A stretch of 64,000 nt of DNA from Bradyrhizobium sp. NFR13 (lineage in GTDB: Bacteria; Pseudomonadota; Alphaproteobacteria; Rhizobiales; Xanthobacteraceae), in NCBI RefSeq assembly GCF_900114605.1, contig NZ_FOTP01000002.1, positions 806,001-870,000 on the forward strand, read 5' to 3'. Below are positions 4,919-33,433 of this stretch, in pieces. Each line of letters begins with the position of its first letter. Positions within the stretch are counted from its first letter, which is position 1. A program made the position numbers and the translations under genes. The notes under the pieces are model-generated. The model was given only the letters and a program-made list of their open reading frames with translations. It ran no database searches and was not told where the DNA came from.

Positions 4919-7561
4919 ATGCGGTTCGGGGGTAGACGGGGCGTCGCTCGCCATGTGGCGGGCGGGCTGATCGGCATGTTGCCGTTGATCACGACAATAC
5001 CGGCCTTTGGCCAAAACAGTGTCGACGCAACAGCGACCGCTTCTACGACCTACCCACTCAACATTCCCGCCAAGCCTCTTGCAGCGGCAATCGCCGATCT
5101 CGGCGCCAGCAGTGGCTGGCGCATCCTCTACACGATCCAGCTCGCACCAGACATGCGTAGCCGGCCGTTGAACGGCAATTACACGATGGCCCAGGCGCTC
5201 GCACAGCTCCTGGCCGGTACGGGAATCACATATCGCATCACCGGTGCGAAAGCCGCGTTGCTGATCGATCCGTCGCAGAGCCGTGCAGGTCCGGTTCCTT
5301 CCTCCACCGACGGCGTTCAGCTCGACACGATTGTCGTCGACGCCAACAGGAACGATAATACGACGGGCTCCGGCTATCAGGGAACGCCAGACTGGGTCTA
5401 TCAGCGCCCGGCCGCGGTCAGCGTGATTTCCCGTGAGGCGATCGAGAGCAGCCCGACGCGCAACGCGCGCGATCTCCTGGACAACGTGGCCGGCGTCTAT
5501 GCCAATCGCTCGGCGGCGCAGAACCCTGGCATCAGCGTCAATATCCGCGGCCTGCAGGATCAGGATCGCATTGCCACCATGATCGATGGCGCGCGGCAGA
5601 ATTTCCAGCGAAGCGGCCACGGTGCGACCCAGCGGACCTATGTCGACACTGCCTTCCTGCGCCAGATCGATGTGGAGAAAAGTACGACGTCGGGCGTTGG
5701 AAGCGCCGGTGCGCTTGGCGGCCTGGTCAATTTCCGCACCTTTATCGCCGACGACCTGATAAAGCCCGGCAACCAGTATGGCGGCGTGGTGAATGCCACC
5801 ACGGGCACCAATGCGTATAATTTCGACGGCTCGACGGCGGCAGCCGTCCGCGTATCGGAGCGCTTCTCGGTGCTCGGCGGCGTCAGCTACAAGAATATCG
5901 GCGCCTACGATATCGGCAAGAACGGCACGATCGGTGGCGGCACGACGGCCTATGACGGCAATGTCTTCCTGTTCTCCGGCCAGGAGGTGTTCTCGACAAT
6001 TCTCAAGGCCGAGGCGCTAACGACCGAAGACGTTAAGATGACGATCGGCTGGCTGCATAACGATTCCCGGTACAATACCGGAAACTATGACAACACGATC
6101 GCTCGCGGTGGCATCCTGAAGTCCAGCGAGCAAGTCGCCAACGACACGTTCACGTCAGCGCTCGACTGGAATCCAGGCAACGACATCGTCGATCTGAAGG
6201 CAAAGCTCTACTACAACCACCTCAAGAATGACACAGTCTCCGACGGCGCCTTTGCGCTGACCGGGCCCTCGAACTTCGTGTTCTCGACGCTGGGCGGCAG
6301 CGTCGAGAACACCAGCCGCTTCCACACGATGCTCGGCGCGCTGGCGTTCAATTACGGCCTGGAAGCATTCAGCGACACCGGCAAGACAACACTGCAGCGC
6401 GGCTTCACCGGCGCTAATGGCGTCGACTATTCCAGCACACTAACCGGCGGCACGCCGAGCGGAAACCGCGACGTTGCCAGCGGTTTCGGCACCGCGACTC
6501 TCAAGCCTGCGGAATGGGTGACCCTGATCGGCGGCATGCGTTACGACTGGTATCATATCGCTGGCATGACGACGATCTACGGCGCAAGGCAGGAGATCAT
6601 CGGGCAATTGATGACCAATCCCGGAAGACCGGCCATCTGCAATGCGCGCGGCTGCGGCGCAGCTGTTCCACCGACATATGTCCCCATCTATGGCACCGTT
6701 TATAGGCCGTATGATCTTGATGTCGATAAATCGGGCGGCGCCTGGCTCCCAAATTTCACGATCGCGTTTCAGCCGGTCGATTGGCTGCAGCCCTTTATAA
6801 AATATTCCAAGAGCTATCGGCCGCCCACGGTCATGGAATCATTCTTGAACGGCGGCCATGATGCAAATGAGATCAATGGCTACGCCCCGAACCCGTTCCT
6901 GCGTCCGGAACGCGGCGACACCTACGAGGCCGGATTCAATGTCCTCGCCAACGGCATCCTGACCGAGCGCGACACCGTCCGCTTCAAGGCCGTCGGCTTC
7001 TATCGCGAGATCACCGACTATATCAGCTTCGGATATATCCAGAACGCGCAAGCCGCCAGTCAATACCAGAGCTATGTCAATCTCAACGGCGTCACGCGCA
7101 TGAAGGGCGTCGAGATCGAGGCGAATTACGACGCGCGCTTCCTCTATATCGGTGGCACCGTCACTCGCATCGACACGGATTTCGCCGACAGTTTCACCAG
7201 CCCGACAGGACGGGACACTCCGATCAACAGTGGCCTCGGCGCTGCCGTCATCTTCGAGCAGCCGAAGCTCCGCGTGACGCTCGATGCCGGCATCCGTCTG
7301 TTCGACGAGAAGCTGACGCTGGGAGCGCGCGTCGTCGACGTCTCGAAGACCGTCCCTGCCCTGGGCTCGCTGCGCAGCGGCTACGAGATGCCGGGCTACC
7401 GCGTCTACGACATCTACGGATCCTATGCCTTCGACGAGGCGACAAAGCTGCGCTTTGCGGTGAACAATGTCACCGATCTCGCTTACGCGCCGGCGGTCGG
7501 CGCCAATTTCTACGCCGCCCCGGGCCGTACCGCGACAGTGTCGCTGAATTACAAGTTCTAG
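4919..7561 (+). CDS. hasR: TonB-dependent heme/hemophore receptor HasR
   Basis: An 880-residue outer-membrane receptor taking heme from HasA or heme proteins, powered by TonB. Order: signal peptide (1-32, ending near AFG-Q), STN signalling domain (about 45-120, YPLNIPAKPLAAAIADLG), plug (about 135-270, with RPAAVSVISREAI and NIRGLQDQDR), then a beta-barrel ending in NYKF. Between the FRAP-like (YRPPTVMESF) and NPNL-like (PNPFLRPE) motifs there is a His (GGHDAN), matching the heme-ligand position of HasR/HemR receptors. A plug His lies in QRSGHGA. The STN domain fits surface signalling through HasS and HasI. Length is close to the 899 residues of Serratia HasR. No hasB (dedicated TonB) is present in the cluster. 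Confidence 0.92.
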   Translation: MRFGGRRGVARHVAGGLIGMLPLITTIPAFGQNSVDATATASTTYPLNIPAKPLAAAIADLGASSGWRILYTIQLAPDMRSRPLNGNYTMAQALAQLLAGTGITYRITGAKAALLIDPSQSRAGPVPSSTDGVQLDTIVVDANRNDNTTGSGYQGTPDWVYQRPAAVSVISREAIESSPTRNARDLLDNVAGVYANRSAAQNPGISVNIRGLQDQDRIATMIDGARQNFQRSGHGATQRTYVDTAFLRQIDVEKSTTSGVGSAGALGGLVNFRTFIADDLIKPGNQYGGVVNATTGTNAYNFDGSTAAAVRVSERFSVLGGVSYKNIGAYDIGKNGTIGGGTTAYDGNVFLFSGQEVFSTILKAEALTTEDVKMTIGWLHNDSRYNTGNYDNTIARGGILKSSEQVANDTFTSALDWNPGNDIVDLKAKLYYNHLKNDTVSDGAFALTGPSNFVFSTLGGSVENTSRFHTMLGALAFNYGLEAFSDTGKTTLQRGFTGANGVDYSSTLTGGTPSGNRDVASGFGTATLKPAEWVTLIGGMRYDWYHIAGMTTIYGARQEIIGQLMTNPGRPAICNARGCGAAVPPTYVPIYGTVYRPYDLDVDKSGGAWLPNFTIAFQPVDWLQPFIKYSKSYRPPTVMESFLNGGHDANEINGYAPNPFLRPERGDTYEAGFNVLANGILTERDTVRFKAVGFYREITDYISFGYIQNAQAASQYQSYVNLNGVTRMKGVEIEANYDARFLYIGGTVTRIDTDFADSFTSPTGRDTPINSGLGAAVIFEQPKLRVTLDAGIRLFDEKLTLGARVVDVSKTVPALGSLRSGYEMPGYRVYDIYGSYAFDEATKLRFAVNNVTDLAYAPAVGANFYAAPGRTATVSLNYKF

Positions 7562-7635
7562 GAATTCCCCGCCCCATTGGCGTGGATGGAGGCCCGCCAC
7601 AAGGCAGGCAAAACAAGCAGAGAAGGGTTTCGAGA

Positions 7636-8451
7636 ATGGCACTCAATCTTCAGCTTACGGCAGCAAGCAGCGACCTCGCAACATATCTGGCGTCGTACGA
7701 CGCCAACTTCACCTACAATGGAAACGGCTGGTTCTCCACCTCGTTCACCGGCCAGGATCAGTGGTCGGCCGGTGTCGATACCGAAGGAACAGACAATAAT
7801 CTGCCTTCCGTCATCATGAACATCCATGACTACAGCTATTCGCCCGGTACATTCAACGGCGACGTGGAATCGCTCACGCTCGGCCATAATCTTGAATATG
7901 TACCGGCCACGGATCTGTGGGTGCAAGATCAGGACCTAATCATCACCAATAGCAGTGGCTACATGCCCGTCACCACCACCTTCAATCAGGCGATCTATTC
8001 GCTATCGCATGGCGGGCTGGTCGATGGTGGGACGTTCTTCGGTCAGTCATTCGCTGGTCTGACCGACTACTTCGCCGAACAGGGCACGAACCAGACCGGC
8101 ACGACAAACGATGACGTCCTTGTCAGTTTCGCCGGCGACGACGTTCTGACCGGCAATGGAGCTGTGCTGGTCGATACGTTCCTCTGGAACGCGAATTACT
8201 ACGATACTGCCGCAGGTACAGCAGCACAGGGCTGGGGCGACGACGTCATCACGGACTTCTTCGACGGAGCCGACCAGATCCAGCTCTCCGGCTTCGGTTG
8301 GGCCAATGCCACGGCATTCCAGAGCGCCGGCGGCAGCCTGTCCGGCAATGTCATCACCTATGCCGACGCGACGAACGGGCTGACCAGCACCATCACAGTG
8401 AACTTCACTGGATCGGGCACGCTGGACTGGAGCGATATCGCCTTCGTCTAA
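7636..8451 (+). CDS. hasA: HasA hemophore 1 with RTX-like C-terminal extension
   Basis: A 271-residue secreted heme-binding protein. Residues 1-165 follow the HasA fold (ATYLASYDANF, then DVESLTLGHNL, then QAIYSLSHGG ... YFAEQG). The conserved heme Tyr is probably Tyr68 (DYSYSPG). The usual His loop contains Tyr27 instead (FTYNGNG), and the His that normally pairs with the Tyr is missing. Residues 170-271 are an extension absent from the 188-residue Serratia protein: Asp-rich RTX-like segments (GTTNDDVL, FAGDDVLTG), a serralysin-like DDVITDFFDGADQIQL and a terminal SDIAFV resembling type I secretion signals. ATG 7636 has aagg upstream (7622-7626). There is no Sec signal, as expected for HasDE export. 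Confidence 0.88.
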   Translation: MALNLQLTAASSDLATYLASYDANFTYNGNGWFSTSFTGQDQWSAGVDTEGTDNNLPSVIMNIHDYSYSPGTFNGDVESLTLGHNLEYVPATDLWVQDQDLIITNSSGYMPVTTTFNQAIYSLSHGGLVDGGTFFGQSFAGLTDYFAEQGTNQTGTTNDDVLVSFAGDDVLTGNGAVLVDTFLWNANYYDTAAGTAAQGWGDDVITDFFDGADQIQLSGFGWANATAFQSAGGSLSGNVITYADATNGLTSTITVNFTGSGTLDWSDIAFV

Positions 8452-23217: not shown

Positions 23218-23367
23218 GATGTTCAGTCCTCTCGCCCGGGCGGTTGCGTGCCGGATGGGTTGCCCGCCCTGAAATTCCCACTATGGTCCCGCCCGGCCAA
23301 CGGATTTTAGCCGCCTTTGGCGCCGGTCAGATGGTTTCCGGGTATCACTTTTCAGGGGACGCACGCA

Positions 23368-24363
23368 ATGCTGCGAAACGACACGACACCTGCCCGCTTT
23401 CGCCTTGCGCTCGCAGCGCTGCTGTTCGCGACGCTGCCCTTCGCGGCGCACGCGCAGGCGCCCGTCTGGCCACCGAAATTCGTGCGCATCATCGTGCCGT
23501 TCGGCGCCGGCGCTAGCCCGGACATTGTCGGCCGTGTGCTCGCCGACAGTCTGCAGGCGCGGCATCCCGGCACCAATTTCGTGGTGGAGAATAAGCCCGG
23601 CGCGTCCGGCAATATCGGCACCGACGCCATCGCGAAATCGACGCCTGACGGTTCGACCATCGGCATCTCGCTCGGCGGCCCGCTCGCCATCAACACGCTG
23701 CTGTTTACCAAGCTGCCCTACAATCCCGATACCGACATCGCGCCGATTACATTGCTTACGCAGCTTCCGAGCGTGCTCGCGGTGCCAACCAGCCTCGGCG
23801 TCAATACGGTCGCGGAATTTCTCGCCAAGGCGAAGGCCGATCCGAAAGGCCTCGGCTACGGCTCGATCGGCGTTGGCACGCTGTCGCAGCTCTGCATGGA
23901 AGCCATCGCGCAGAAGGCCGGCGCCAATATGGTGCACATCCCCTATCCGTCATCGCCTGCCGCGACCACCGCGCTGATCCGCGGCGACGTGCAGGTCGCG
24001 TGCCTCCCCGCCATCGGTGTCACGCCGCAACTCGCCACCGGCGCCGTGAAGATCCTCGCCGTCACCACCGCGAAGCGCTCGCCGTTCCTGCCGGATGTCC
24101 CAACGCTGACCGAGAGCGGCATCGACGTGCAGTCCGACGCCTGGAATGCGCTGGTCGGTCCCGGCGGATTGCCTGGGGACGTTGTGGCGAAGATCAATGC
24201 GGAAGTCGTGCAGACGCTAAGCGAGCCCGCGGTGATCGAGAAGCTGAAGCTGCAGCTCATCACGCCCTCGCCGACCACGCCGGACGAACTGCGCAAGCGC
24301 ATGGCCGACGAGAAGGCACTGTGGGCCGAGGTGATCAAGGCGGCGAAGATCAGGATCGATTGA
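23368..24363 (+). CDS. Tripartite tricarboxylate transporter binding protein (Bug/TctC)
   Basis: 331 residues from ATG 23368 with aggggac upstream (23354-23360). A signal peptide (ALAALLFATLPFAAHA) precedes a Bug-family periplasmic binding fold (IVPFGAGASPDIVGRVLAD, NKPGASGNIGTD, VPTLTESGID). These proteins capture small carboxylates. No TctA/TctB membrane genes are adjacent, which is common for the many orphan bug genes of this group. Its last 305 bases are repeated downstream of the STAND gene (26946-27251) at about 96 percent identity. Confidence 0.9.
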   Translation: MLRNDTTPARFRLALAALLFATLPFAAHAQAPVWPPKFVRIIVPFGAGASPDIVGRVLADSLQARHPGTNFVVENKPGASGNIGTDAIAKSTPDGSTIGISLGGPLAINTLLFTKLPYNPDTDIAPITLLTQLPSVLAVPTSLGVNTVAEFLAKAKADPKGLGYGSIGVGTLSQLCMEAIAQKAGANMVHIPYPSSPAATTALIRGDVQVACLPAIGVTPQLATGAVKILAVTTAKRSPFLPDVPTLTESGIDVQSDAWNALVGPGGLPGDVVAKINAEVVQTLSEPAVIEKLKLQLITPSPTTPDELRKRMADEKALWAEVIKAAKIRID

Positions 24364-24366
24364 GGG
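24061..24366 (+). repeat. Left copy of a 305-bp direct repeat (tctC 3' end)
   Basis: Nearly identical to 26946-27251; about a dozen differences are visible, mostly concentrated in the last 110 bases and mostly synonymous. The two copies flank the STAND NTPase gene at a distance of 2,885 bases. Identity stops at gattgagg just past the stop codon. Confidence 0.9.
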
Positions 24367-24525
24367 ACCGGATCAAGGCTTAACCTTTACAGTCAACTCC
24401 AAAGCTCTCAAATATCTCATCCTAAAGGACCAACGACGAAAGCTTGGTGCACAAACCGTAGACAACAACTTTAGTTTGCGCCACAGTTGCACTTGTCGAA
24501 TAAGAACGAACGGCACGGGGGAAAC

Positions 24526-26361
24526 GTGGGTCGTATCAAACAAGAAGTGCGATTGGAACACTTGTCACGGTTTCCCGCCGAAGAGGCACAACTTGAACCA
24601 TTGCTAAATGGGTTCGAAGTTAGTTGGGCACGAGAACGCAAAGCATATAATACGTCGCTTTCAGTATATATTCTTACCCCCGAAAACCACCTTGCTGAAA
24701 CGTTTGGATTGAACACCCAAATCGCTCTTTTCATACCGCATTATGCATCGTTTCAACCTCGCCTCTTCCAAGCAATCTACCAACTGCTAAACGAAGACCC
24801 CTTAAATGGCCGCGTCGATCGAAATACGTTTCTCCTGCTTTGCGGAAATGAAGCAGACAAAAAAATTGTATTTGACTACATTACCGAGCACGCTCGCAAT
24901 TGGATTCCAATACTACTTACTTCTGAAGATTTAGCCGAAGCTAAGCGGGCCCGCTGGGGGATACGTCACCCCCTTGCCTCTCAGATATTCACCAGAGATT
25001 TATTCAACCAAGAACTTCCGCTAAAAACAGACATTGACTTCTTTGGGCGAGAGAGCCTGCTCTTCGACTTTCGCGATGCGATCAGTAAATCTCAAAATAG
25101 AGCAATCTTTGGGCTGCGGAAAACCGGAAAAACTTCTGTTCTGTTCAAAGCCATGCGTAGCTTGAGCGAAAAAGACCAGATTGCCCTGTACTATGATTGC
25201 AAAAAGCCACGAATAAGAAGACTCACGTATCCTGATTTTTTGTCTCTTATCTGCAACGACATCTCGGAAAAACTTGGTATTTCCAGCCAATTCAAAAACC
25301 TTGAACCCGATGAGCGCATTGAAAGGATTGCGCAGCACATCGGAAAAAAACGCCGAGTCTGCCTGATCTTTGATGAGATCGAGTACGTGTCTTTCTTAGC
25401 AAAACTCGACCCGCACTGGCACATTGATTTTATCAACTTGTGGCAAACTCTCTGGTCCCTACAAAGCGAGTTTAGAAATTTCTCATTCTTCATCTCGGGC
25501 GTGAATCCGACGGTAGTTGAAATCGATAAAATCTCCGGGATACAAAATCCACTTTTTGGCATAGTTTCCTATCAATATTTGACAGGATTGAACCTTAGCG
25601 AACTCCGGAGAATGCTTCACATACTTGGACGGAGAATGGGACTAGAGTTTACGGAGAGCGCCACACTCGCACTTCACCGAAAGTACGGCGGCCACCCACT
25701 CCTCACTCGAAAGGCGTGCAGCTTCATTCATACTGCCGTTCAGATCGAAGGCACCGAGAGGCCAGTTAGCATATCTTCCGAATTTATCTCTATGCATGAA
25801 GATATTCTGGACGAGAACATGGAGTTCTACTTCAAACACGTTCTCACAGAACTGGAGGATTTCTATCCGGACGAGTATGAGATGCTGAAAATGGCCGTCG
25901 CTGGTCAACGTCTCGATTTTTCTGAGTTTGCAACCGATGCTTCGCTGCGGCGGCACTTGGAGAGTTACGGTCTCGTCAGCATTGATCCTAAGACAAATAT
26001 TCCAACATTCATGATTGATTGTTTGCGCTCCTACCTAGAGAGGGAGACAGCTCGGAAAGAGGGACGTCAGTACCGCATAAGGCTAACAACAGGTGACGAA
26101 CGAGCATCTTGGCTGAAGGCCCGCTGCCACCAAATCGTAAAGGAATTTCGAGCTCTCAACGTCGCTATAGAGGACGCTATGGTTACGAGTTATTCCCGAA
26201 TGGACACATTTTTCATCCGGAAGATTTTGTTGATGTCCGATCGAGCGATACAGTCGCTTCTTTCGAAGCATTCATCAACGTTTGCTATAAGTCGCTCATT
26301 GAGGAAATTGATCGAGTTGCGAAGAATCGCGGAAAACGAGACTATTTCTTTTCCGATTTGA
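24526..26361 (+). CDS. STAND/AAA-type NTPase, frameshifted before its C-terminal domain
   Basis: 611 residues from GTG 24526 (ribosome site cgggggaaa), in DNA clearly less GC-rich than its surroundings. Residues 1-165 are an unassigned N-terminal domain. An FGRE box (173-176) leads into an ATPase with P-loop GLRKTGKTS (196-204), Walker B VCLIFDE (278-284) and a sensor-like FFISGVNP (about 323-330). A winged-helix GGHPLLTRKAC region follows, as in nSTAND/ORC-like ATPases. From about residue 551 the frame loses family-like sequence, and the expected continuation appears in the -1 frame (26178-26597). The last 60 residues here are therefore probably out-of-frame translation. Proteins of this plan are often anti-phage or signalling NTPases; that role is inference. 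Confidence 0.7.
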   Translation: MGRIKQEVRLEHLSRFPAEEAQLEPLLNGFEVSWARERKAYNTSLSVYILTPENHLAETFGLNTQIALFIPHYASFQPRLFQAIYQLLNEDPLNGRVDRNTFLLLCGNEADKKIVFDYITEHARNWIPILLTSEDLAEAKRARWGIRHPLASQIFTRDLFNQELPLKTDIDFFGRESLLFDFRDAISKSQNRAIFGLRKTGKTSVLFKAMRSLSEKDQIALYYDCKKPRIRRLTYPDFLSLICNDISEKLGISSQFKNLEPDERIERIAQHIGKKRRVCLIFDEIEYVSFLAKLDPHWHIDFINLWQTLWSLQSEFRNFSFFISGVNPTVVEIDKISGIQNPLFGIVSYQYLTGLNLSELRRMLHILGRRMGLEFTESATLALHRKYGGHPLLTRKACSFIHTAVQIEGTERPVSISSEFISMHEDILDENMEFYFKHVLTELEDFYPDEYEMLKMAVAGQRLDFSEFATDASLRRHLESYGLVSIDPKTNIPTFMIDCLRSYLERETARKEGRQYRIRLTTGDERASWLKARCHQIVKEFRALNVAIEDAMVTSYSRMDTFFIRKILLMSDRAIQSLLSKHSSTFAISRSLRKLIELRRIAENETISFPI

Positions 26362-26597
26362 AGGTCGAGCTACCAAAACTTTTTGATGCACTCTATCGAA
26401 TAAGAGCGTACCGACACTGGCGTTTCCACTCAGAGGTTTATCCCAGCGTACAAGCAGCAATTAGCTCATACTTCAAGCGAGATTTTGGGGAAGATAGGGA
26501 AGCGATCACCGCCTCAGATTTTATGGTTCTTCAACAGATTATCTTAGATGAGTTATTACTCGCCATCCAAGAAGAACTAGCAAATCTGTCTGACTAA
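26178..26597 (+). pseudogene. Out-of-frame C-terminal domain of the STAND protein (HEPN-like)
   Basis: In this frame 139 codons encode a well-ordered helical sequence (YGYELFPNGHIFHPEDF, FEAFINVCYKSLIEEID, FFSDLKVELPKLFDALYRI, IILDELLLAIQEELANLSD). It joins naturally to the upstream protein if the frame slips back one base at 26178, reading ...AIEDA then YGYEL. It contains YRHWRFH, an RxxxxH motif as in HEPN ribonucleases. No slippery heptamer is visible at the junction, so a one-base deletion (or a sequencing error) is more likely than programmed frameshifting. The repaired protein would be about 690 residues. Confidence 0.6.
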
Positions 26598-26856
26598 TAC
26601 AGCGCTGAAAAATCGCAATTATGGGCTTCGTCGATCAATCTCTTCGGTCAGAAAAGAAGGTTGAATACGTGATGCCGCCTCATTGCCGCGCGCAAACGAG
26701 ATGTACTGGCGTATGTCTTCGGCACTTGGCCGCGATGAGCGCGCAGGCACCGTACCGACGTCGATGGAGCGATCAAGCTCCTATTGGCAGATCCGCTTCT
26801 TCATCTTTACCGTCTTATCGTCATCGATGAATGTCTCGGCCACCGACTTGGTCGTA
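26598..26856. other. Unassigned spacer between STAND gene and tctC remnant
   Basis: A 259-base segment of intermediate GC content. Several short frames cross it, but none has a ribosome site or recognisable domain. It includes a stretch translating as AARKRDVLAYVFGTWPR followed by a stop. It probably contains the right junction of the inserted segment, since tctC-like sequence begins at about 26857. Confidence 0.4.
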
Positions 26857-27248
26857 CCGGCACGCTGTCGCAGCTCTGCATGGAATCCATCGCGCGGAGG
26901 GCCGACGCCAGTATGAAGCACATCCCCTATCCGCCATCGCCCCCCGTCACCACCGCGAAGCGCTCGCCGTTCCTGCCGGATGTCCCAACGCTGACCGAGA
27001 GCGGCATCGACGTGCAGTCCGACGCCTGGAATGCGCTGGTCGGCCCCGGCGGATTGCCTGGGGACGTTGTGGCGAAGATCAATGCGGAAGTCGTGCAGAC
27101 GCTAAGCGAGCCCGCGGTGATCGAGAAGCTGAAGCTGCAGCTCATCACGCCGTCGCCGACCACGCCCGATCAGCTCCGCAAGCGCATGGCCGACGAAAAG
27201 GCGCTGTGGGCCGAGGTAATCAAGGCCGCGAAGATCAGGATCGATTGA
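26857..27248 (+). pseudogene. Truncated tctC-like gene remnant
   Basis: The sequence from about 26859 (ggcacgctgtcgcagctctg) corresponds to the tctC gene from about 23875 on. It lacks the signal peptide and the first half, and carries an in-frame internal deletion: PYPPSPPVTTAKRSP here against PYPSSPAATTALIRGD and onward in the intact gene. The deletion ends sit at a short repeated tcgcc. The last 100 codons are intact and end at the same TGA context. It cannot encode a functional binding protein. Its divergence from the intact copy suggests it is the older, displaced allele. Confidence 0.85.
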
Positions 27249-27251
27249 GGT
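26946..27251 (+). repeat. Right copy of the 305-bp direct repeat
   Basis: Partner of 24061-24366, in the same orientation. The first 190 bases differ at only one position that I can see; the last 110 hold the remaining differences, mostly at third codon positions. Confidence 0.9.
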
Positions 27252-27293: not shown

Positions 27294-27671
27294 TCACACG
27301 AACCGGCAGTTTCGCGCGGTTTGCGCCATGCCGGACGACGACGATGTCGGAATGCTGTAGCTCGCCTCGCTCGGCGTTTGGCCACGTGCCGGGATGATCA
27401 CCGTGCCGTGGTCCTTCACCGAGCCCTTGGCGCTGGTTACCGTGACGTCGATGCCGCAGGCGATCTTGCGGGCGCAATTGTTCTCGAAGTCCATCTTGAA
27501 CGAATACTTGCCGTTGTCCTGCCAGAAGCCGACATACTTGTCGCCGACGCAGGCTTTGGCTTCCTCGGTCCAGTTGTCGGCTTCAGGCCAGAGCAGCAAG
27601 GCGCTGCCGCCGATGAGCGCACCGACGGCGCCAACAATCGTCGCAATCAATACAAACCTGCGTCCAAACAT
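27294..27671 (-). CDS. Single-span membrane-anchored protein of unknown function
   Basis: 125 residues from ATG 27671 with ggagg upstream. One N-terminal membrane helix (FVLIATIVGAVGALIGGSALLLW) is followed by an extracytoplasmic domain with four or five Cys (KACVGDKYVGFWQDN, NNCARKIACGIDV, ARNCRFV) that could form disulfides. I do not recognise the family. It probably follows the secreted protein at 28339-27734 in one transcript (62-base gap). Confidence 0.7.
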   Translation of the reverse strand: MFGRRFVLIATIVGAVGALIGGSALLLWPEADNWTEEAKACVGDKYVGFWQDNGKYSFKMDFENNCARKIACGIDVTVTSAKGSVKDHGTVIIPARGQTPSEASYSIPTSSSSGMAQTARNCRFV

Positions 27672-27733
27672 CGCCGCCTCCGGAGTGGTTTCCCCTTCGT
27701 CGCGGCGGGTGGCGCAGTGGTTCACGGCGCACG

Positions 27734-31303: not shown

Positions 31304-32923
31304 TCACCCCTGCTTCTTCACGTCCTTGATATCAGAGAACACAATCCCCTCGGCGCGTTCCTTCGTGTAATTCAGATAGAAATCGTTCTTCGCCAGGAAC
31401 ACCGGATCGCCGTCGACATCATCCGCGACGCCGGAATTGTTGTTCGACATGAACGTCTCGAGCTTCTTCTTGTCATCCGATGAGATCCAGCGTGCCAGCG
31501 AGAATTCCGAGACTTCGAAGCTGACCGGCAACTGATATTCCGCGTCCAGCCGCGCCTTCAGCACGTCGAGCTGCAGCGGGCCGACGACGCCGACCAGCGC
31601 CGGCGCGCCGTCGCGCGGGCGAAACACTTGGACGACGCCCTCTTCCGACATCTGCTGCAAAGCCTCTTTCAGCTTCTTCGCCTTCATCGCATCGCCGAGG
31701 CGTACGCGGCGCACGATTTCCGGCGCGAATGACGGCACACCGATGAAGGTGATGTCTTCGCCATCGGTCAGCGTGTCGCCGATGCGCAGCGTGCCGTGAT
31801 TGGGAATGCCGACCACGTCGCCGGCATAGGCTTCGTCCGCAATGGCGCGGTCCTGCGCGAAGAAGAATTGCGGCGACGACAGCGACATGTTCTTGCCGGT
31901 GCGCACCAGCTTGGCCTTCATGCCCCTTGTCAATTTGCCCGAGCACAGCCGCGCAAAGGCGATACGGTCGCGGTGGTTGGGGTCCATGTTCGCCTGGATC
32001 TTGAACACGAAGGCCGACATCCGGGGCTCGTCGGCCTCGACCTTGCGAAGATTGCTCTCCTGCGCGCGCGGCGACGGCGCGAAACGGCCGAGGCCTTCGA
32101 GCAGATCGCCGACGCCAAAGTTACGAAGGGCCGAGCCGAAATAGACCGGGGTCATGTGGCCTTCGCGGAACGACTGCAGGTCGAACGGCTTGCCGGCTTC
32201 CTTCACCAGTTCGAGTTCGCCGGCGATTTCATCCGCGTCGAGATTGGGATTGCGTCCGGCGAGTTCTGCGATGGTGATCTGCTCCGCCGCGCCGGTCTTG
32301 GCACCGCCGCCTTCTAGCAGGCGGATGCCACCAGTTTCGATGTCATAGGTGCCAACGAAATCGCGGCCGCGGCCGACGGGCCAGTTGATCGGCACGGTGT
32401 CGAGCGCCAGCGTCTTCTCGATCTCGTCGAGCAGATCGAAGATGTCGCGGCTCTCGCGGTCCATCTTGTTGACGAAGGTGATGATCGGGATATCGCGCAG
32501 ACGGCAGACCTCGATCAGTTTCAGCGTGCGCGCCTCGATGCCCTTGGCGGCGTCGATCACCATGATGGCGCTGTCCACCGCGGTGAGCGTTCTGTAGGTG
32601 TCTTCCGAGAAGTCCTCGTGGCCTGGCGTGTCCAGCAGGTTGAAGACGTGGCCCTGGAATTCGAAAGTCATCACCGAGGTGACGACGGAGATGCCGCGGT
32701 CGCGCTCGATCTTCATCCAGTCTGAGCGCGTGTTGCGGCGCTCGCCCTTGGCCTTGACCTGACCGGCGAGATTGATGGCGCCGCCGAACAGCAGCAGCTT
32801 TTCGGTCAGCGTGGTCTTGCCGGCGTCAGGATGCGAGATGATCGCGAAGGTGCGGCGGCGGGCGACCTCGGCGGCAAGCGGCGATTGCACGGGCGAGTCG
32901 GCAGAAAGGGCGATGTCGGACAT
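31304..32923 (-). CDS. prfC: Peptide chain release factor 3
   Basis: 539 residues, normal for RF3, a GTPase that recycles RF1/RF2 from the ribosome after termination. GTPase motifs: [15 protein letters not shown] (G1), a GISVVTSV region (G2), DTPGHEDF (G3) and NKMDRE (G4). The C-terminal RF3-specific domains follow ([20 protein letters not shown]). ATG 32923 begins MSDIALSAD; the longer frame upstream is not family-like. The 263-base gap to the cyclase gene holds nothing recognisable. Confidence 0.96.
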
Positions 32924-33052
32924 AAACGTGCCTGTGGCAGGGAAAACGGGCGCAATCAAGGGATTTGCGCGGGATTCGAACGGGATTCGCCTGATTATGG
33001 CGACCATCGGCCGCGTTGCGATCCGGCTGCGCCGCCTCCATATACCCCCTGC

Positions 33053-33095
33053 GAGGACGACCTCCAAATCATCATCAAGAGCAGGGACGGCCCTG
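33053..33095 (+). promoter_or_regulatory. Guanidine-II (mini-ykkC) riboswitch
   Basis: Two short hairpins with the diagnostic ACGR loops lie in the leader of the exporter gene. P1 is GAGG (33053-33056), loop ACGA (33057-33060), CCTC (33061-33064). P2 is CAGGG (33082-33086), loop ACGG (33087-33090), CCCTG (33091-33095). This is the signature of the guanidine-II class, which commonly precedes SugE/Gdx genes. The CCTCC at 33061-33065 is complementary to the ribosome site GGAGG at 33107-33111. Folding of P1 on guanidine binding could therefore release translation (inference). Confidence 0.88.
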
Positions 33096-33118
33096 TACTT
33101 TCATCAGGAGGCCGTTCC

Positions 33119-33433
33119 ATGGCTTGGTTGTTGCTGTTCATCGCGGGTTTGCTCGAAGTCGGCTGGGCTGTCGGGCTGAAATATACCGAGGGCTTCACCC
33201 GCCTCGTCCCCTCCGTCCTCACTTTGATCAGCATGACCGCGTCCGTCGGCATGCTCGCCCTCGCCCTTAAGGAACTGCCGATGGGAACCGCTTACGCGGT
33301 GTGGACCGGCATCGGCGCGGTCGGCACCGCAGCGCTGGGCATGTATTTGTTCGGCGACCCGGCCACCGTCGCGCGGATCAGCTGTATCGGGTTGATCGTG
33401 GCGGGCATTGCCGGGCTGAAGCTGGTGTCGTGA
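33119..33433 (+). CDS. gdx: Guanidinium exporter Gdx (SugE), SMR family
   Basis: 104 residues with four membrane helices, the small multidrug resistance fold. The family Glu is present ([17 protein letters not shown], Glu13), along with the conserved [16 protein letters not shown] segment that marks the Gdx/SugE subfamily. It works as a dual-topology dimer exchanging guanidinium for protons. The guanidine-II riboswitch directly upstream supports guanidinium as the physiological substrate. The ribosome site caggagg at 33105-33111 is well spaced from ATG 33119. Confidence 0.93.

Follow-up and report, generated by a model that had tools for sequence, protein, structure and literature searches.

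How does a single foreign-looking gene come to lie behind a host gene that it leaves complete? The question is raised by a locus in Bradyrhizobium sp. NFR13, which we analyzed within a stretch of 64,000 nucleotides (the window), positions 806,001 to 870,000 of contig NZ_FOTP01000002.1. The window starts 806 kb into this contig (C7), and the genome comprises 6.2 Mb in 17 contigs. Here, an island of about 2.5 kb carrying a P-loop NTPase gene lies between two direct repeats derived from the 3' end of tctC, which encodes a periplasmic binding protein (Table 1). We consider it fairly likely that the cargo entered through homology to tctC and one illegitimate end-joining, without an integrase and in more than one step.

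The GC content of the island (24367-26857) is 0.464, compared with 0.617 for the window. The GC content at third codon positions is likewise lower, at 0.50 and 0.42 in the two frames that make up the NTPase gene, compared with 0.73-0.82 in eight neighbouring frames and 0.84 in tctC. Both measures match a foreign-looking segment and, together with the repeat comparison, agree with the initial annotation, which had described a low-GC segment of about 2.5 kb with a P-loop NTPase between direct repeats.

The repeats extend over 300 nt (24059-24358 and 26944-27243), are 96 percent identical, and have a spacing of 2885, close to the approximately 305 bp and 96 percent first proposed. An additional repeat piece, 23875-23973 and 26859-26957, is 88 percent identical and has a spacing of 2984. 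Because the two spacings differ, the right copy must have lost 99 bp. This deletion, whose existence had been recognized but whose size had been put at roughly 110 bp, is in-frame and is bounded by two 9-bp direct repeats (ACCACCGCG). Both repeat copies encode the end of the TctC protein. As had been read from the sequence, only the left copy belongs to a full gene (PF03401, 3.3e-54), for which we picked the ATG at 23368 as the start. The right copy is truncated; its frame is open and covers PF03401 profile positions 177-272 only (1.3e-13). From the right copy onward, the DNA is 91.8 percent identical to the corresponding place in the congener G016, which bears out the earlier statement that this copy runs into ordinary host sequence.

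We compared the locus across the genus, for which 18 genomes were searched, our own included. Eleven of the 18 have a completeness of 90 percent or more and a contamination of no more than 5 percent. The compared genomes are those of other species, with same-species strains outside the sample, and some are incomplete drafts. A single tctC tail is present at 15/15 compared congeneric loci, some with little sequence behind tctC; this count excludes L049 (G011), where the alignment shows a single tctC, and G014, which gave a partial match only. In the four closest species, hereafter the sister species (G016, G008, G003, and G004), the left flank is 91-93 percent identical. Behind the single tctC of these species, the next gene is the one found 45 bp past the right copy in the window, here at distances of 71, 74, 216, and 270 bp, respectively, counted from stop codon to gene. 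Its protein is 94-95 percent identical to that of the window in G016, G008, and G003, and 66 percent identical in G004. The four sister species have the arrangement that the initial annotation anticipated for relatives free of the island, with one tctC followed by the downstream gene. Two complete tctC genes around the NTPase gene, an arrangement it had named as contradicting an insertion, were seen in none of the compared species.

The NTPase was found in 0/17 congeners (E 0.001), some of them incomplete drafts, and the segment looks like an acquisition. Matches were detected in 3/296 genomes of the family (E 1e-5) and, with an alignment as query, in 5/397 genomes of the order (E 1e-20), our own genome included in both counts. 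Differing reading frames lie behind tctC in L038, L039, L040, L041, and L044 (G005, G015, G002, G001, and G009, respectively), among them a 690-aa frame in G001 that we take to encode a TonB receptor. The variety of these frames across congeners makes the position behind tctC look like a small variable site.

The right end of the island bears on the route of entry. Here, positions 26675-26854 (minus strand) match the 3' part of an Ala/Lys/Pro-rich gene that is located behind tctC in G001, G002, G005, and G015, the only four of the 17 congeners with this gene. The window version is a remnant with a stop codon, and it abuts the interior of tctC at 26855-26859. Searches of the four sister species turned up neither this gene nor the NTPase. 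In the window, the middle of tctC is thus joined to a piece whose usual place is downstream of tctC, a join of the type that arises from closure of a circle or from tandem duplication. A tandem duplication of the tctC-neighbour region, with deletion of the second unit and separate acquisition of the NTPase, would also yield such a tail-to-head junction. We regard this as very unlikely, as it requires both the loss of the second unit and sister-like sequence directly past the stop codon, a place where G003 is similar.

The right tctC copy is itself a mosaic of a head, a middle, and a tail. We classified its sites according to the base in each of the two copies, in the four sisters, and in a further 11 congeners, and called a change private when it was not seen in the four sisters. 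In the head (equivalent to 23875-23963), all eight right-private changes fall at codon position 1 or 2. The middle has no right-private change, and the tail has three, all at codon position 3. Private changes at positions 1 and 2 therefore affect 8/60 sites in the head versus 0/201 in the middle and tail combined (Fisher 5e-6) and 0/64 in the tail alone (p 0.002), with both p-values serving as guides only. The contrast between a decayed head and an undecayed tail suggests that the tail belonged to a functional tctC up to recent times, whereas the head has long been free to decay. The head and the left copy share bases at 23904 and 23952 that are seen in none of 15 congeners, which indicates that the head stems from the tctC of a close relative. 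Eleven sites differ between the tail and the left copy. At three of the tail positions, 24285, 24286, and 24291, the right copy is sister-like and the left-copy base occurs in no sister. This pattern would fit an imported left tail and a displaced native right tail, if weakly when taken alone, as the three sites lie within 7 bp.

The same zones allow an old in-place event to be weighed, in which the NTPase inserted with duplication of its target, the right copy decayed, and its middle was refreshed by conversion from the left copy. Such an event would account for the middle zone, where the copies differ once in about 205 bp, and for the decay seen in the head, the NTPase gene, and the neighbour fragment alike. 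The tail, with its differences from the left copy and its lack of private changes at positions 1 and 2, cannot be explained by conversion from that copy; one would have to assume another conversion, with a different strain as donor. A further argument against it is that none of the four sister species has the NTPase or the dead neighbour gene, and we find an in-place origin unlikely.

In the entry through tctC homology that we favour, the donor DNA would have contained a tctC end, the low-GC single-gene cargo, and a piece of the neighbour gene. The interior of the gene found downstream of tctC in some congeners would have been joined illegitimately to the interior of tctC, and this tail-to-head join may have come from circularization of a linear donor fragment or from an equivalent homology-facilitated illegitimate event. 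A single crossover within tctC, carried out by host homologous recombination, would then have produced the present order, namely a complete tctC with an imported end, the cargo, the dead neighbour fragment, a headless tctC fragment, and the native downstream sequence. Because the tail is undecayed although the head in front of it is decayed, the right border must have been renewed at a later time. The right part of the right copy may have been replaced when the cassette moved again by tctC recombination, or by conversion from another strain. The initial annotation had proposed that the segment brought a replacement tctC end and displaced the native tail. The absence of the NTPase from congeners, the empty sites, and the three tail sites support this view. 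Its assumption of a single arrival is not supported, because the right copy combines a decayed head with an undecayed tail and is preceded by a dead fragment.

Clean excision of the island by recombination between the repeats is plausible. A bolder possibility, which we judge quite unlikely, is that the cassette is a recombinase-free mobile unit that leaves as a circle and re-enters the single tctC of relatives by RecA crossover, swapping gene ends as it does so. The phase switch within the right copy would then be the footprint of a second move.

Several points weigh against entry through tctC homology in the form described above. No island-carrying donor was found in the compared genomes, and DNA uptake by this bacterium is putative. 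At some of the compared loci, the sequence behind tctC is scant (approximately 230 bp in G010). With respect to the mosaic, the zone borders were set after the data had been viewed, the diagnostic sites are linked and small in number, and the tests exclude a right-private change at codon position 1 (24058, at the deletion border). Some of the private changes also occur among the 11 outgroups, in the head at 23915 (one outgroup) and 23927 (six), and in the tail at 24282 (two) and 24312 (three). Furthermore, the two copies share a 63-bp patch (24169-24231 and 27054-27116) with 15 bases that are found in none of the four sisters. Within this patch, the match to the sisters drops to 77-79 percent, where two sisters are 96 percent alike, and the patch may be of older date or represent a conversion tract. 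Among 296 genomes of the family, no better DNA donor for the patch was found than the sister species. Finally, the assignment of the cargo to HEPN-type, anti-phage proteins, discussed below, rests on the sequences and predicted structures of relatives.

Site-specific integration of a phage, satellite, or integrative element that supplied a replacement gene end and later lost its integrase would give a similar layout. The PF00589 integrase profile had no match in the window, with the six matches of the genome located elsewhere; serine recombinases, transposases, and other recombinase families were not searched for. The earlier statement that no integrase is present holds for this family. Attachment-site cores are usually shorter than 300 bp, and the repeats here, of at least 300 bp, exceed them. 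No other mobile-element gene was recognized in the island among the frames inspected. In favour of such an integration, 10 IMG/VR contigs carry NTPase relatives, and on two plasmids inspected such relatives have integrase or recombinase genes a few kb away. The layout is also that of icd with the prophage e14, where a 163-bp piece of the gene (icd') is duplicated, in the part of the published account drawn on here (PMC6379469). In both cases there is a complete gene with a new end provided by the element, then the cargo, and the original end displaced to the far side. In contrast to the tctC locus, with its longer repeat and no PF00589 match, e14 is a 15-kb cryptic prophage that integrates site-specifically. 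The chromosomal gene fragment in the island, which comes from the tctC neighbourhood of congeners, points to chromosomal DNA as the vehicle and thus away from site-specific integration, an origin that we hold to be very doubtful. Two candidates were rejected, an integrase-driven island given the unmatched PF00589 profile, and a tRNA as the insertion site, as the window contains no tRNA.

The type of event that we favour, entry by homology combined with an illegitimate join, is known, and the present example is unusually legible. The following comparisons draw on portions of the published reports. In E. coli, a partial lacZ duplication was present in 56/60 clones analyzed, 14 of which were sequenced (109-950 bp); the duplications were explained by a single crossover with a circular molecule, most likely after linearization, degradation, and recircularization (PMC3240628). 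The tctC repeat measured about 0.5 kb before the 99-bp deletion. As in the lacZ duplications and in homology-facilitated illegitimate recombination (HFIR), the insert lies between partial direct repeats of the gene that supplies the homology, with one illegitimate join and no recombinase carried. In contrast, the tctC case is natural, chromosomal, and partly decayed, shows signs of more than one recombination step, and would have passed through a putative intermediate.

In Vibrio type VI secretion system immunity arrays and in Rhs loci, old 3' modules are displaced, for which the authors propose HFIR (PMC5361080). There, as proposed here, incoming DNA is anchored in the conserved upstream part and takes the place of a gene or gene end, and the ancestral part is pushed downstream as an orphan. 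The tctC locus differs in that its target is a transporter gene whose end is little changed, and in that the cargo is a separate gene that brings no new end function.

Table 1. Features at the tctC locus, given as positions in the window
Feature	Position	Strand	Basis or remark
tctC-like periplasmic binding protein gene, complete	23368..24363	+	PF03401 3.3e-54; open frame 23317-24363
Left repeat copy, tctC 3' end	24059..24366	+	repeat search, sister alignments
Low-GC island	24367..26857	n/a	GC 0.464
STAND-like P-loop ATPase gene, first frame	24487..26361	+	family match, residues 14-567
Remainder of the same ATPase gene, other frame	26109..26597	+	C-terminal probable HEPN domain, RHWRFH
Dead 3' remnant of an exported-protein-like gene (Ala/Lys/Pro-rich)	26675..26854	-	gene sits behind tctC in four other congeners
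Illegitimate junction of dead gene piece and tctC interior	26855..26859	n/a	alignments and site comparison
Decayed head of right tctC copy	26859..26957	+	88 percent to left copy
Right repeat copy: truncated tctC 3' end, native-type tail, then host sequence	26944..27251	+	repeats, PF03401, alignments
Host gene directly behind tctC in four sister species	27294..27725	-	congener loci

The cargo had been read as a P-loop NTPase gene, but it is not one intact frame. A profile built from 12 intact relatives matched the first frame (24487-26361) over residues 14-567, and the second (26109-26597) over the last approximately 140 positions. As the family match is split over two frames, there is either a frameshift in the gene near 26160-26190 or an error in the sequence at that place. 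The longest open frames of relatives are mostly 660-750 aa, with a few near 620. In Bradyrhizobium sp. JYMT SZCCT0180 (L095), the relative at approximately 5240-8056 is likewise split over several frames, and decay of the NTPase is thus not confined to the window.

The sequence and predicted structures suggest that the members of the NTPase family are STAND-like ATPases with a probable C-terminal HEPN domain. In keeping with Walker A and B motifs, the F-G-L-R, G-K-T-S, and D-E-x-E columns are invariant in 48 sequences that include the window frame. The window frame matched AAA_22 and AAA_14 above the curated cut-off, and among the 48 members nSTAND1 was matched by 22 and nSTAND6 by seven. A sequence search of the PDB gave no match. 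The model of a relative from Zoogloea (predicted local distance difference test (pLDDT) score 92.3) was closest to the archaeal structure 2qen (Z 20.3; root-mean-square deviation (rmsd) 5.0 over 318 aligned residues), followed by a plant NLR (Z 18.7; rmsd 4.5, 299 aligned) and CED-4 (Z 18.0; rmsd 4.6, 303 aligned). ORC2 reached Z 18.0, level with CED-4, and ORC1 came first in Foldseek. With ORC2 at this level and ORC1 leading in Foldseek, the fold evidence points to AAA+/STAND proteins broadly and not to STAND alone.

In the C-terminal domain, at least 90 percent of 43 sequences share an arginine. It is followed by a histidine with R-x4-H spacing in the close subfamily (RHWRFH in the window) and with R-x3-H spacing (e.g., RxDAH) in many distant members, the latter falling outside the strict R-x4-6-H spacing of HEPN domains. 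The Swt1-like HEPN profile PF18731 matched 4/48 members at E <=0.01 (best 5.4e-4) and neither window frame. Folded alone, the Zoogloea C-terminal domain gave a model with pLDDT 93.6, for which Foldseek returned no match at E 0.001. Against several HEPN proteins this model scored Z 3.8-4.8 (e.g., 7bxo at 4.8, rmsd 4.3, 104 aligned), with unrelated helical bundles reaching up to Z 6.4, so that the structural comparison did not set HEPN apart from such bundles. STAND ATPases fused to Swt1-like HEPN domains have been noted as a class, with STAND-ATPase/TPR/S1 fusions and examples of N-terminal HEPN domains, in the part of that survey used here (PMC3710099). The present family resembles this class in its P-loop STAND-like core with a probable HEPN domain, its sporadic occurrence, and the proximity of some members to restriction-modification genes. 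It differs, as far as the published description allows a comparison, in that the probable HEPN domain is located at the C-terminus and follows the ATPase and an alpha/beta part at the N-terminus.

Comparisons with defence-system libraries gave few matches. The window frame showed weak, partial PADLOC matches, the best at 2.1e-4 over approximately 50 residues. Across the 48 members, any one PADLOC family matched at most eight (PDC-S01, best 2.5e-5), and the strongest matches were to PDC-S27 in four (6.2e-10) and CSD_V in one (8.9e-13). Six proteins had no NCBIfam match near the cut-off. Neither the NTPase family nor the locus was recognized in the literature on STAND/HEPN defence genes and integrase-free islands, judging by titles and abstracts, which is not proof of absence. 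The NTPase is a member of an under-described, defence-like family, and its gene, with a probable HEPN RNase domain, is most likely an anti-phage gene. We infer that it would act by itself as an abortive defence effector of HEPN type, gated by ATP; in relatives it is intact, and here it seems to be dead.

The family is distributed sporadically over bacteria, archaea, plasmids, and viral contigs. The single NTPase sequence as query found no relative in GTDB or IMG/VR contigs, whereas an alignment query did. In GTDB contigs, 135 stretches encode relatives, of which 80 were kept. Matches were found in 21 plasmid records, 16 of them from Klebsiella; a distant relative lies, for example, at 5941-7944 of the Klebsiella pneumoniae plasmid pF13_1 (L065). 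No conserved partner gene was detected among frames of at least 100 aa at 90 loci, where the largest shared neighbour group comprised four loci. Ten neighbour proteins from eight loci all matched restriction-modification, OLD, Lamassu-type, or candidate defence families, a rate that is biased, as the ten were picked by eye from the nearest frames of 32 loci (two of them from the neighbour-group comparison) and 24 loci were not scanned.

Elsewhere in the window, a Guanidine-II (mini-ykkC) riboswitch match at 33049-33095 (+ strand; 32.1 bits, cut-off 32) lies shortly upstream of a frame (32831-33433) whose end looks like a SugE/Gdx-type small exporter, for which we would expect pairing with such a riboswitch.

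Taken as a whole, the locus provides a natural and readable case of a lone, defence-like gene entering a chromosome with no integrase found, in which the mosaic right repeat partly orders the steps. The family of this gene is widespread, with no conserved partner and no close named system in the libraries searched, which makes its intact members candidates for single-gene anti-phage systems. If cassettes flanked by the ends of core genes are common, they would explain part of the singleton accessory genes that show no visible mobility genes. Should the cassette indeed be a mobile unit, defence genes could spread through the ends of core genes without integrases.

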